Source of the DNA: an uncultured Blastocatellia bacterium
Lineage (GTDB): Bacteria > Acidobacteriota > Blastocatellia > Chloracidobacteriales > Chloracidobacteriaceae
Length of the DNA: 64,000 nucleotides
Reading direction: 5' to 3'
NCBI GenBank assembly: GCA_937934745.1
Contig: CALGZC010000038.1
Span: 1-64,000 of the forward strand
Each line of letters starts with the position of its first letter. The first letter of the stretch is position 1. A model generated the notes under the pieces. It had not been told where the DNA came from. It saw nothing but the letters and a program-made list of their open reading frames with translations, and ran no database searches. The translations under genes and the position numbers were made by a program. This document shows, one piece after another, positions 13,726-18,019 of this stretch.

Positions 13726-14160
13726 ATGGCCGGGCAGGAAGAGCGAAAAGTCGTTATTATTGAGCGAAAAGATGATCCGCGACCGGCGTCGGAAGCTACG
13801 CCGGGTGCGCCAAGCGAGGAGCCGAAGGGCGCAATTGAGGAGATTACAAGCTCCGTCCGTGAGCTGGCGCGGACGCTGCCGGAGTCAATCGGCCGGCTGC
13901 CGGGTTCGATTGGGGCAGCCATTCAGCAGGCGTTGGCCAGCCGTGACTTGAACGTGACGGTACATCTGTCGGAAGACACGATGCGTTCGATTGAAATGCT
14001 CGTTCAGGCGGGTATTTTCGCCAACCGCTCAGAGGCAGCCGCCTACCTGATCGGGGAAGGGATTGCTGCCAAGCGTGAGCTTTTTGAGCAGGTAACGGAA
14101 AAGATCATCCAGATTGAAAAGCTCAAGTCGGAGCTGCGGTCACTGGCGGGACGCGCCTAG
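13726..14160 (+). CDS. Ribbon-helix-helix-like protein
   Basis: 144 residues. The first ~80 are charged and Pro/Ala-rich. Residues about 83-140 read VTVHLSEDTMRSIEML... NRSEAAAYLIGEGI, which has the beta-helix-helix pattern of ribbon-helix-helix DNA-binding proteins, then a C-terminal coiled-coil helix (EKIIQIEKLKSELRSL). A near-perfect Shine-Dalgarno (GGAGGTGA) sits nine bases or fewer before ATG 13726. It could be a transcription regulator or a structural coiled-coil protein; the DNA-binding role is inferred from the pattern only. Confidence 0.75.
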   Translation: MAGQEERKVVIIERKDDPRPASEATPGAPSEEPKGAIEEITSSVRELARTLPESIGRLPGSIGAAIQQALASRDLNVTVHLSEDTMRSIEMLVQAGIFANRSEAAAYLIGEGIAAKRELFEQVTEKIIQIEKLKSELRSLAGRA

Positions 14161-15502: not shown

Positions 15503-15545
15503 GCCCGCTCTGAAAGGTTGCAGCCCAACAGCATAGTCGGGGGGT

Positions 15546-15566
15546 GCCGGGCTTTTCTGGCCCGGC
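15546..15566 (+). other. Hairpin upstream of the diadenylate cyclase gene
   Basis: Perfect 7-bp inverted repeat gccgggc / gcccggc with a T-rich 7-base loop, between the acyltransferase stop and the cyclase start. No T tract follows, so it may be a processing or attenuation element rather than a terminator. Confidence 0.5.
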
Positions 15567-15606
15567 GCGATTCTGGGGATTTCCGCCGAGGAAACGTGAT
15601 TTTGTG

Positions 15607-17517
15607 ATGACGACCCTGATGCACTGGCTCAGTCAATCCTGGCTCGCGTCTGTCCTAGACCTGGTGCTGGTGTTTTTCGTCGTCTACGAGGTGCTCAAGC
15701 TGCTCAAAGGAACGCGGGCGGCGCAAGTGGCACTTGGGATTGCCTTGGTCGCGCTGCTGTACCAGGCTTCCCACTGGCTGCATCTGCCGACGCTGGAGTT
15801 CGTCATCCGCCACAGCTTCCTCTATGTAGGCTTTGCGGTTGTCGTGCTGTTTCAGAATGAAATCCGAACGGCGTTTGCCCATTTTGGGCGCAACATTCGC
15901 TTTTCGGCGCTGTTTGGATGGCGGGCACCGAAGTCGCCGATGGCGCAGTATGAAGACGTGTTGTTGGCCGTGACGACGTTTGCGGCGAAGAAAACCGGCG
16001 CGCTGATCGTGTTTGAGCGGCAGGATAATCTGGATGAATACATTACGCGCGGCGTCAAGCTCGATGCCGTGGTGGGCTATGACCTGCTCATCAATTTGTT
16101 TAACCCGGAAGCGCCGCTGCACGATGGTGCCGTCATTATTCGGCAGGGACGGATTGCAGCGGCGAGTTGCTTTCTGCCGCTGACCCTCAATCCCCGGCTT
16201 TCAAAGGACACCGGCACCCGCCACCGTTCGGCAATTGGGATTACCGAGGAAACCGATGCGTTTGTCATCGTTGTTTCGGAAGAAACCGGTATGGTCTCGT
16301 GCGTCGAGCATGGGCAGATCAAGCGTGGGCTTGGCATCCGGGAGGTACGGGCGCTGCTATCCCGCGCGTTGAATGCAGCCGAGGGTCCATCGCCTCCGGT
16401 ACGGCGCCGGCGGCGGTTGCTCATTGAGGACACGTCCGGCGTGGATTTTGTCACTGCCGACTTGCGCAGTGAGACCGGCGAAACGCCTGCAGCCGGGACA
16501 CCGGCCCTTGTGGGTGAGGGTCGGACTTCGCGGATGCGGGAGCGCGGCGTCGTGGATGTGGCTGCTGTGTGGCGGCAAGGGCAGCACTGGGCGGCCTGGT
16601 GGGGCGAGCGATGTCGCGCCCTGTTGTTTGAAAACTTCCCCCTCAAGTTCATTGCAGCCGTGATTACGAGTGCGCTGTGGCTCTCGGCAACCAAGCAGGA
16701 TGCGATTCCATTTGTGTTGCGCGGCGTCCCGATTACTTATCAGGGCCTCCAGGAGGACTTGATCATTGCCAACAGCCAGGAGGTCCAGGAGGTGACGATC
16801 CGTGTGCGCGGACCGCGGGATGTTGTCGAACGCCTGCGCCCTGAGTCGTTTGTCGTCACCGTTCCGCTGGCCGGTAAGAATCCCGGCGAGCGGGTGATTG
16901 TGTTGCGGGAAGACGCACGCATTGAGAAGCCCACCAATGTCGAGATTCTGGAGATTGAGCCGGTGCGGATTACGCTCAACCTGGAGCGGCAAGTGTACCG
17001 CGAGGTGGAGATCAAACCGAACTTTCGCGGCGTGCTGCCGGTGGATCGGGAAATTGCCGAGTATCAGGTGACCCCGCCGACGACGCGGGTGCGCGGGCCA
17101 GAATCACAGGTGTACGCCCTGCAGGCTGTCGGGACGGAGACCATCTGGCTCAATATTCACGACCGGTCGTTTGTTGAGCGCTACAAAGTGGATGTCAAAG
17201 ATCCACGGATTGAGATTGTCGGCGCTTCAGAGGTTGAAGTGAAGGTCACAATTCGGCCGATCATCATCCGGCGGCGAGTGGATGTCATCTTGGACGTGCC
17301 GGGGACGCCACCCAAACGTTTGGAAGTCACCGTGGAGGGGCCGAAATCGGTTGTAGAAAAGCTCCGGGGGCGTGATTTTCAGGCAACCGTTGCCAATGAG
17401 CCGGTGGCGGAACATCCGTTTCGCCGGGCGGTCGTGGTGACACCGCCGCCAGCTGTCGCCGGACAAGTGCAGATTGTAGCGGTCAATCCGAGCGAGGTTC
17501 TCTACCGTGCGCCATAG
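15607..17517 (+). CDS. cdaA-cdaR fusion: Diadenylate cyclase (CdaA-type) fused to YbbR/CdaR domains
   Basis: Predicted c-di-AMP synthase of 636 residues with its usual regulator on the same chain. Three N-terminal transmembrane helices (about 11-33, 38-56, 66-84) lead to a cytoplasmic DAC domain with both catalytic motifs, DGA (173-175, in LHDGAVII) and RHR (205-207, in GTRHRSA). After a ~90-residue linker, a fourth membrane helix (PLKFIAAVITSALWLSA, about 350-370) precedes about 260 residues of YbbR-type repeats, which would face the periplasm. In Firmicutes these are two adjacent genes, cdaA and cdaR. The start is ATG 15607 or GTG 15604, with GAGGA further upstream. The fusion has no frameshift and reads through cleanly. 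Confidence 0.92.
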   Translation: MTTLMHWLSQSWLASVLDLVLVFFVVYEVLKLLKGTRAAQVALGIALVALLYQASHWLHLPTLEFVIRHSFLYVGFAVVVLFQNEIRTAFAHFGRNIRFSALFGWRAPKSPMAQYEDVLLAVTTFAAKKTGALIVFERQDNLDEYITRGVKLDAVVGYDLLINLFNPEAPLHDGAVIIRQGRIAAASCFLPLTLNPRLSKDTGTRHRSAIGITEETDAFVIVVSEETGMVSCVEHGQIKRGLGIREVRALLSRALNAAEGPSPPVRRRRRLLIEDTSGVDFVTADLRSETGETPAAGTPALVGEGRTSRMRERGVVDVAAVWRQGQHWAAWWGERCRALLFENFPLKFIAAVITSALWLSATKQDAIPFVLRGVPITYQGLQEDLIIANSQEVQEVTIRVRGPRDVVERLRPESFVVTVPLAGKNPGERVIVLREDARIEKPTNVEILEIEPVRITLNLERQVYREVEIKPNFRGVLPVDREIAEYQVTPPTTRVRGPESQVYALQAVGTETIWLNIHDRSFVERYKVDVKDPRIEIVGASEVEVKVTIRPIIIRRRVDVILDVPGTPPKRLEVTVEGPKSVVEKLRGRDFQATVANEPVAEHPFRRAVVVTPPPAVAGQVQIVAVNPSEVLYRAP

Positions 17518-17544: not shown

Positions 17545-17871
17545 TTACTGAGGGGTTTTGGCTGCCTGGCGCAGGGCGTTGCGGCGGAACATCGTCAGTA
17601 AGAACGTACAGGCTAGGACATCATCGAGGAGGAGGACGCTATACAGCGCCACATCACCGCGCAGGCCGACCGCCATCAGAAGATGGATAAGCCCCATATT
17701 CACCAGGTACAGCAGGAACAGTACGACTGACATGACGAGCAAGGGCTGGATCGAGGCAGAGTACAGACTGGCACCCTTTTTGACGCGCACGGCCGAAACC
17801 CGCGCCAGAGCCAGCAACATCACGGTGATGATCAGCGTACAGGACGTACCGACAAAAAAATCTGAAGCCAT
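17545..17871 (-). CDS. Small membrane protein, unknown
   Basis: About 108 residues with three predicted membrane helices (about 5-25, 40-62, 75-95) and a basic C-terminus. I do not recognise it. ATG 17871 gives a natural start (MASDFFVG); the tracked ORF extends upstream into the tRNA region. It is convergent with the cyclase gene, and 27 bases separate the stops. Confidence 0.6.
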   Translation of the reverse strand: MASDFFVGTSCTLIITVMLLALARVSAVRVKKGASLYSASIQPLLVMSVVLFLLYLVNMGLIHLLMAVGLRGDVALYSVLLLDDVLACTFLLTMFRRNALRQAAKTPQ

Positions 17872-17944
17872 AGCGCCATTGCCGGTTGTTGTGCGTGGCG
17901 CACGCTGCCCTGGGGGCAGTGAGCGCACGCCACCGGCCCACAAT

Positions 17945-18019
17945 TGGAGGTGGCGGTCGGAATCGAACCGACGAATAAGGGTTTTGCAGACCCGTGCCTT
18001 ACCACTTGGCTACGCCACC
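17945..18019 (-). tRNA. trnC: tRNA-Cys (GCA)
   Basis: Read on the minus strand, the sequence starts GGTGGCG, pairs with CGCCACC at the 3' end, and has the loop CTGCAAA with anticodon GCA and a TTCGATTCC T-loop region. A CCA end is encoded (17947-17945). It is 75 bases long. Confidence 0.97.

Follow-up and report, generated by a model that had tools for sequence, protein, structure and literature searches.

The cdaA-cdaR fusion gene and its neighbors

Frame analysis of the window, i.e., the whole stretch of 64,000 nucleotides under study, revealed a single open frame without interruption on the plus strand from 15544 to 17517. At this base composition, the chance expectation for its 636 stop-free codons is 4e-10. 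Both the CdaA and the CdaR (YbbR) parts lie inside this one frame, and the gene thus encodes a CdaA-CdaR fusion protein; the placement of both on one 636-residue chain, proposed in the first-pass annotation, was borne out by the frame, by Pfam, by TIGR00159, and by 10 of 10 family genomes. A whole-genome search found the gene to be the sole DAC gene and the sole YbbR gene of the source genome (G000, 99.9% complete, 73 contigs). The fused proteins of Chloracidobacterium metagenome-assembled genomes (MAGs), the nearest named records, are 79% identical to the window protein, and the source organism belongs to Chloracidobacterium or is closely allied to it. The features of the locus are as follows.

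13726-14157, plus strand: frame of 144 residues with a weak ribbon-helix-helix match, 5' of the acyltransferase gene
15607..17517, plus strand: cdaA-cdaR fusion gene, 636 aa, start ATG at 15607, alternative start GTG at 15604
15607..15882, plus strand: CdaA N-terminal membrane region, aa 1-92, with three predicted transmembrane (TM) helices (hydropathy, model, weak CdaA_N match)
15967..16317, plus strand: DAC catalytic domain, aa 121-237 (Pfam DAC, Foldseek)
16123..16131, plus strand: DGA catalytic motif, aa 173-175, intact
16219..16227, plus strand: RHR motif, aa 205-207, intact
16393..16557, plus strand: cytoplasmic linker, predicted to be mostly disordered, aa 263-317 (pLDDT, codon-position pattern)
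16558..16629, plus strand: helix ahead of the fourth membrane helix, aa 318-341 (predicted model)
16636..16692, plus strand: fourth TM helix (TM4), CdaR-derived, aa 344-362 (hydropathy, predicted model)
16726..17499, plus strand: three YbbR domains, about aa 374-457, 467-547, and 566-631, predicted to be extracytoplasmic (Pfam, model)
17548-17943, minus strand: small antisense frame of 132 residues directly 3' of the fusion gene
17945-18019, minus strand: tRNA-Cys, flanked by the small antisense frame and the lipid A acyltransferase gene

The 5' neighbor of the fusion gene is a PlsC-type acyltransferase gene, and on the 3' side the small antisense frame and tRNA-Cys are followed by the lipid A acyltransferase gene; this order was kept in loci L047 and L048. 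The 132-residue antisense frame had no Pfam or NCBIfam match but was conserved in this position in L047 (79%), L048 (74%), and L049 (55%). The 144-residue frame was 86% identical in L047 and L048.

Enzyme and regulator halves of the fused protein

The front half is, judging from profile and structure matches, a CdaA-type diadenylate cyclase predicted to synthesize c-di-AMP. It scored 220.1 bits with the CdaA equivalog model NCBIfam TIGR00159 (cut-off, 188.8), Pfam DAC was matched at aa 121-237 (E 4.6e-42), and CdaA/DacA structures ranked first in the Foldseek search, the best being S. aureus DacA (6gyw, E 2.7e-18). The predicted model placed the membrane helices at aa 12-32, 37-57, and 61-82, hydropathy agreed on three, and the Pfam CdaA_N match at aa 13-86 was slightly below the cut-off (22.4 versus 23.8 bits). 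The DGA and RHR motifs named in the first-pass annotation were present at aa 173-175 and 205-207; in the alignment of 54 sequences, D and G as well as R205 and H206 were invariant, and A and R207 were conserved in at least 90%. Three N-terminal membrane helices followed by DAC with DGA and RHR are shared with CdaA/DacA (TIGR00159; DAC family PF02457), to which the fusion adds about 375 residues at the C terminus, housing the regulator.

The rear half is, by its domain matches, the CdaR (YbbR) regulator and probably has a regulatory role. Pfam YbbR matched three stretches (47.1 bits versus a cut-off of 22.3, E 3.1e-12, best stretch aa 374-457), and a single membrane helix (aa 344-362) precedes the repeats, as in CdaR. 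The arrangement of one membrane helix and then three YbbR domains is common to CdaR/YbbR (PF07949), whereas the CdaR part of the fusion has no separate gene and is joined to CdaA at its N terminus. A sequence search of solved structures with the YbbR half retrieved isolated YbbR domains only, and weakly (2l3u, E 0.014). No solved CdaA-CdaR complex with YbbR was found in the structure search, nor a cryo-EM complex in the open-licence literature. In the AlphaFold2 model, built on 54 sequences, the DAC and YbbR domains were predicted with high confidence (mostly >90); the overall pTM was only 0.48, and the relative placement of the domains, including TM4 versus TM1-3, is unreliable.

Linker and integrity of the chain

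The end of the DAC model and the fourth membrane helix are 80 residues apart in the fusion. The intervening linker contains RRRRR and a semi-conserved SETxxxGTP stretch, and its pLDDT of <50 across aa 260-317 predicts disorder. The one linker and the extra membrane helix of the first-pass annotation were thus found again in the predictions, as the disordered stretch at aa 260-317 and the TM helix at aa 344-362. Within the genus, linker 263-341 is less conserved than any other region, with 61% mean amino-acid identity, and its within-genus differences per site at codon positions 1, 2, and 3 (0.28, 0.22, and 0.55) indicate that it evolves as translated sequence.

A disordered, fast-evolving linker at 260-317 would also suit a polypeptide that is cut there, or a separate CdaR made from an internal start, with a two-subunit complex as the working form. 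An in-frame GTG or ATG at 'VDF', which precedes the TM4 motif by 66 codons, was found in most of the genus, and a weak AGGA or GGAG lies upstream of it in several of these genomes. However, no start codon at any linker position is conserved family-wide, the 'VDF' start is absent from L018 and L032, and no protease site was identified; a two-subunit working form is considered quite improbable. The fixed 1:1 stoichiometry expected by the first-pass annotation follows, provided that the chain stays whole.

Distribution of the fusion

In the Chloracidobacterium family (f1), 10 of 10 genomes from four genera carried a cyclase frame of 642-685 residues ending in YbbR, and the fused proteins were 49-88% identical to the window protein. 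Three of the ten assemblies consist of two contigs each and share the frame. A frameshift or stop between the domains was looked for, and the frame was unbroken in all ten. A sequencing or assembly error that deleted the stop between two genes is refuted by conservation of the frame in the other nine genomes and has a practically negligible probability; nothing was found in its favor.

With the fused-protein profile, full-length uninterrupted matches among 396 Acidobacteriota genomes were confined to the six sampled f1 genomes; the next-best matches (G055, G026, G016, and G017) had one to three stops inside. In the sister family and the remaining sample of the phylum, cdaA and cdaR were separate and mostly adjacent. 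Among 80 loci from many phyla, the genes were fused only in the four f1 loci and in none of the other 76. The spread of single chains with DAC and YbbR, about which the first-pass annotation had made no claim, was thus mapped to f1 among the sampled genomes and to one clade.

Several long DAC frames were inspected and rejected. The only DAC frames of more than 450 residues in the Bacillota sample, in G516 and G483, were both split, with the extra length 5' of the cyclase and YbbR separate, and the long DAC frames of Acidobacteriota (G308, G256, G294, G323, G317, G240, and G041) likewise had an extension 5' of the cyclase and a separate YbbR. In the cases read, these upstream extensions were GC-rich spurious frames.

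That the two proteins are separate subunits in Firmicutes, as the first-pass annotation stated, held as a rule: none of 150 Bacillota genomes, of which 133 matched DAC strongly, had a fusion, in surveys that are samples and that rare fusions, such as the streptococcal ones, would escape; but some streptococci carry CdaA-CdaR fusions (UniProt A5LQF8, E1M7C3, and V8IIN0; 2023 review, PMC10243994, section 6). According to the description in the review, these join the same two proteins in a single chain (PMC10243994). They occur in some strains of one Bacillota genus, whereas in the acidobacterial family all sampled genomes have the fusion. The acidobacterial and streptococcal fusions are likely of separate origin, because the sampled Bacillota and the other acidobacterial relatives are split. 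The objection that such fusions might be common and already characterized applies by half, the streptococcal ones being in print (PMC10243994), and the CdaA-CdaR architecture is not new in kind; it is a real but modest variation. In the open-licence literature, no reports of a CdaA-CdaR fusion in Acidobacteriota and none linking Chloracidobacterium to c-di-AMP were found.

Origin of the fusion

The ten fused proteins formed one clade in both the DAC tree and the YbbR tree, each with support 100/100. The split sister family f2 (L043 and L044) adjoined the fused clade in the YbbR tree with support 99/96 and was placed next to it in the DAC tree with weaker support, 84/60. Alignment A2, with YbbR-only rows, was dropped as MAFFT spread those rows across the DAC part; alignment A3, which includes four split loci read through a single in-frame stop, was used instead. 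Because both halves form one clade, the fusion likely arose a single time, in the ancestor shared by the Chloracidobacterium family.

In nearly all split acidobacterial loci examined, with the exception of L042, cdaR lies directly 3' of cdaA. In f2, GGAGG and the GTG start of cdaR come after the stop of the cyclase gene, and about 85-87 codon-equivalents separate the end of the DAC model from the CdaR membrane helix, compared with 80 residues in the fusion. In L006, L008, L024, and L025, cdaA and cdaR are in the same frame with one stop codon between them. From this similar spacing and these single-stop relatives, stop loss between adjacent cdaA and cdaR with a small frame adjustment would be a sufficient route to the fusion.

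A neutral read-through fusion without functional consequence, its stop loss tolerated between operon genes whose products already bind, would agree with adjacency as the norm, at times in frame with one stop, with the almost complete lack of added length, and with the restriction of streptococcal fusions to some strains (PMC10243994). It remains doubtful, though deserving serious consideration, as the fusion was kept in 10 of 10 genomes of four genera without reversion, although one new stop and start would undo it.

The single in-frame stop between cdaA and cdaR in L006, L008, L024, L025, L035, and L097 is TAG in five loci and TGA in one, and its read-through could yield some fused product in those species, too. 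Unlike its sister genus, L042 (G010, sister family) encodes a diverged CdaA without an adjoining YbbR gene; its branch is long (1.35, entered in the tree under the other locus id L012).

Proposed mechanism and relation to known systems

We favor, with some reserve, the reading that the fusion is an ordinary CdaA-CdaR complex, covalently tethered, formed once by stop loss and obligatorily 1:1, with YbbR regulating through the membrane helix. The DAC domain would convert two ATP to c-di-AMP when two DAC domains have come face to face. The extracytoplasmic YbbR domains would act via TM4 packed against the CdaA helices, and this packing would shift how readily the chains adopt the active DAC arrangement. 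The disordered linker would merely hold the parts together, and the tether, in an intact chain, would set the 1:1 stoichiometry and retain the regulator beside the enzyme.

Since the linker is predicted to be disordered, a signal is more plausibly passed by helix packing in the membrane, and in Bacillota, CdaR and CdaA make contact through membrane segments (PMC10243994, PMC8573169). The first-pass annotation had expected direct periplasm-to-cytoplasm signaling; this would be no advance over the split pair, which is already a membrane-spanning complex, and a low-confidence linker of ~80 residues is unlikely to relay a conformational change alone. CdaR has been reported to activate or repress the cyclase depending on growth condition (PMC8573169), in Chlamydia YbbR is said to be necessary for DacA activation (PMC12422730), and in S. 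aureus CdaR was reported to have no conclusive effect (PMC6368335). This species-dependent effect, the possible internal start in the genus, and the pTM of 0.48 count against the tethered complex.

Regulation of CdaA by CdaR is unsettled, being activating, repressing, or neither by species, and the fusion is useful as a test system; it does not amount to a new type of signaling. As a natural one-chain version, it fixes the stoichiometry and makes co-expression of two membrane proteins unnecessary, which should aid structural work on CdaA-CdaR. It is also gene-fusion evidence that CdaA and CdaR act together outside Bacillota.

Linkage to glmM and other c-di-AMP genes

The enzyme and regulator are the same as in the cdaA-cdaR-glmM operon of Bacillota, where glmM encodes the other regulator of CdaA. 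In contrast to that operon, no glmM lay close to the fused gene in the window, L135, L136, L047, or L048, the family members covered. The source genome has three phosphoglucomutase-family genes, all on other contigs, with the best GlmM candidate on contig C15. Split relatives, L044 and L138 among them, have glmM adjoining cdaR. L043 of the sister family f2 is also without glmM downstream, so this loss of linkage is not confined to fused loci. A family-wide, long-fixed sensor-cyclase with covalently joined CdaA and CdaR, in which regulation would have moved from cytoplasmic GlmM to the outward-facing YbbR domains and c-di-AMP synthesis of Chloracidobacterium would be a direct report on the cell envelope, appears unlikely.

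Searches of the genome found neither a PgpH phosphodiesterase nor a c-di-AMP riboswitch. A DHHA1 frame of 371 residues on contig C4 could be a candidate c-di-AMP-degrading enzyme.
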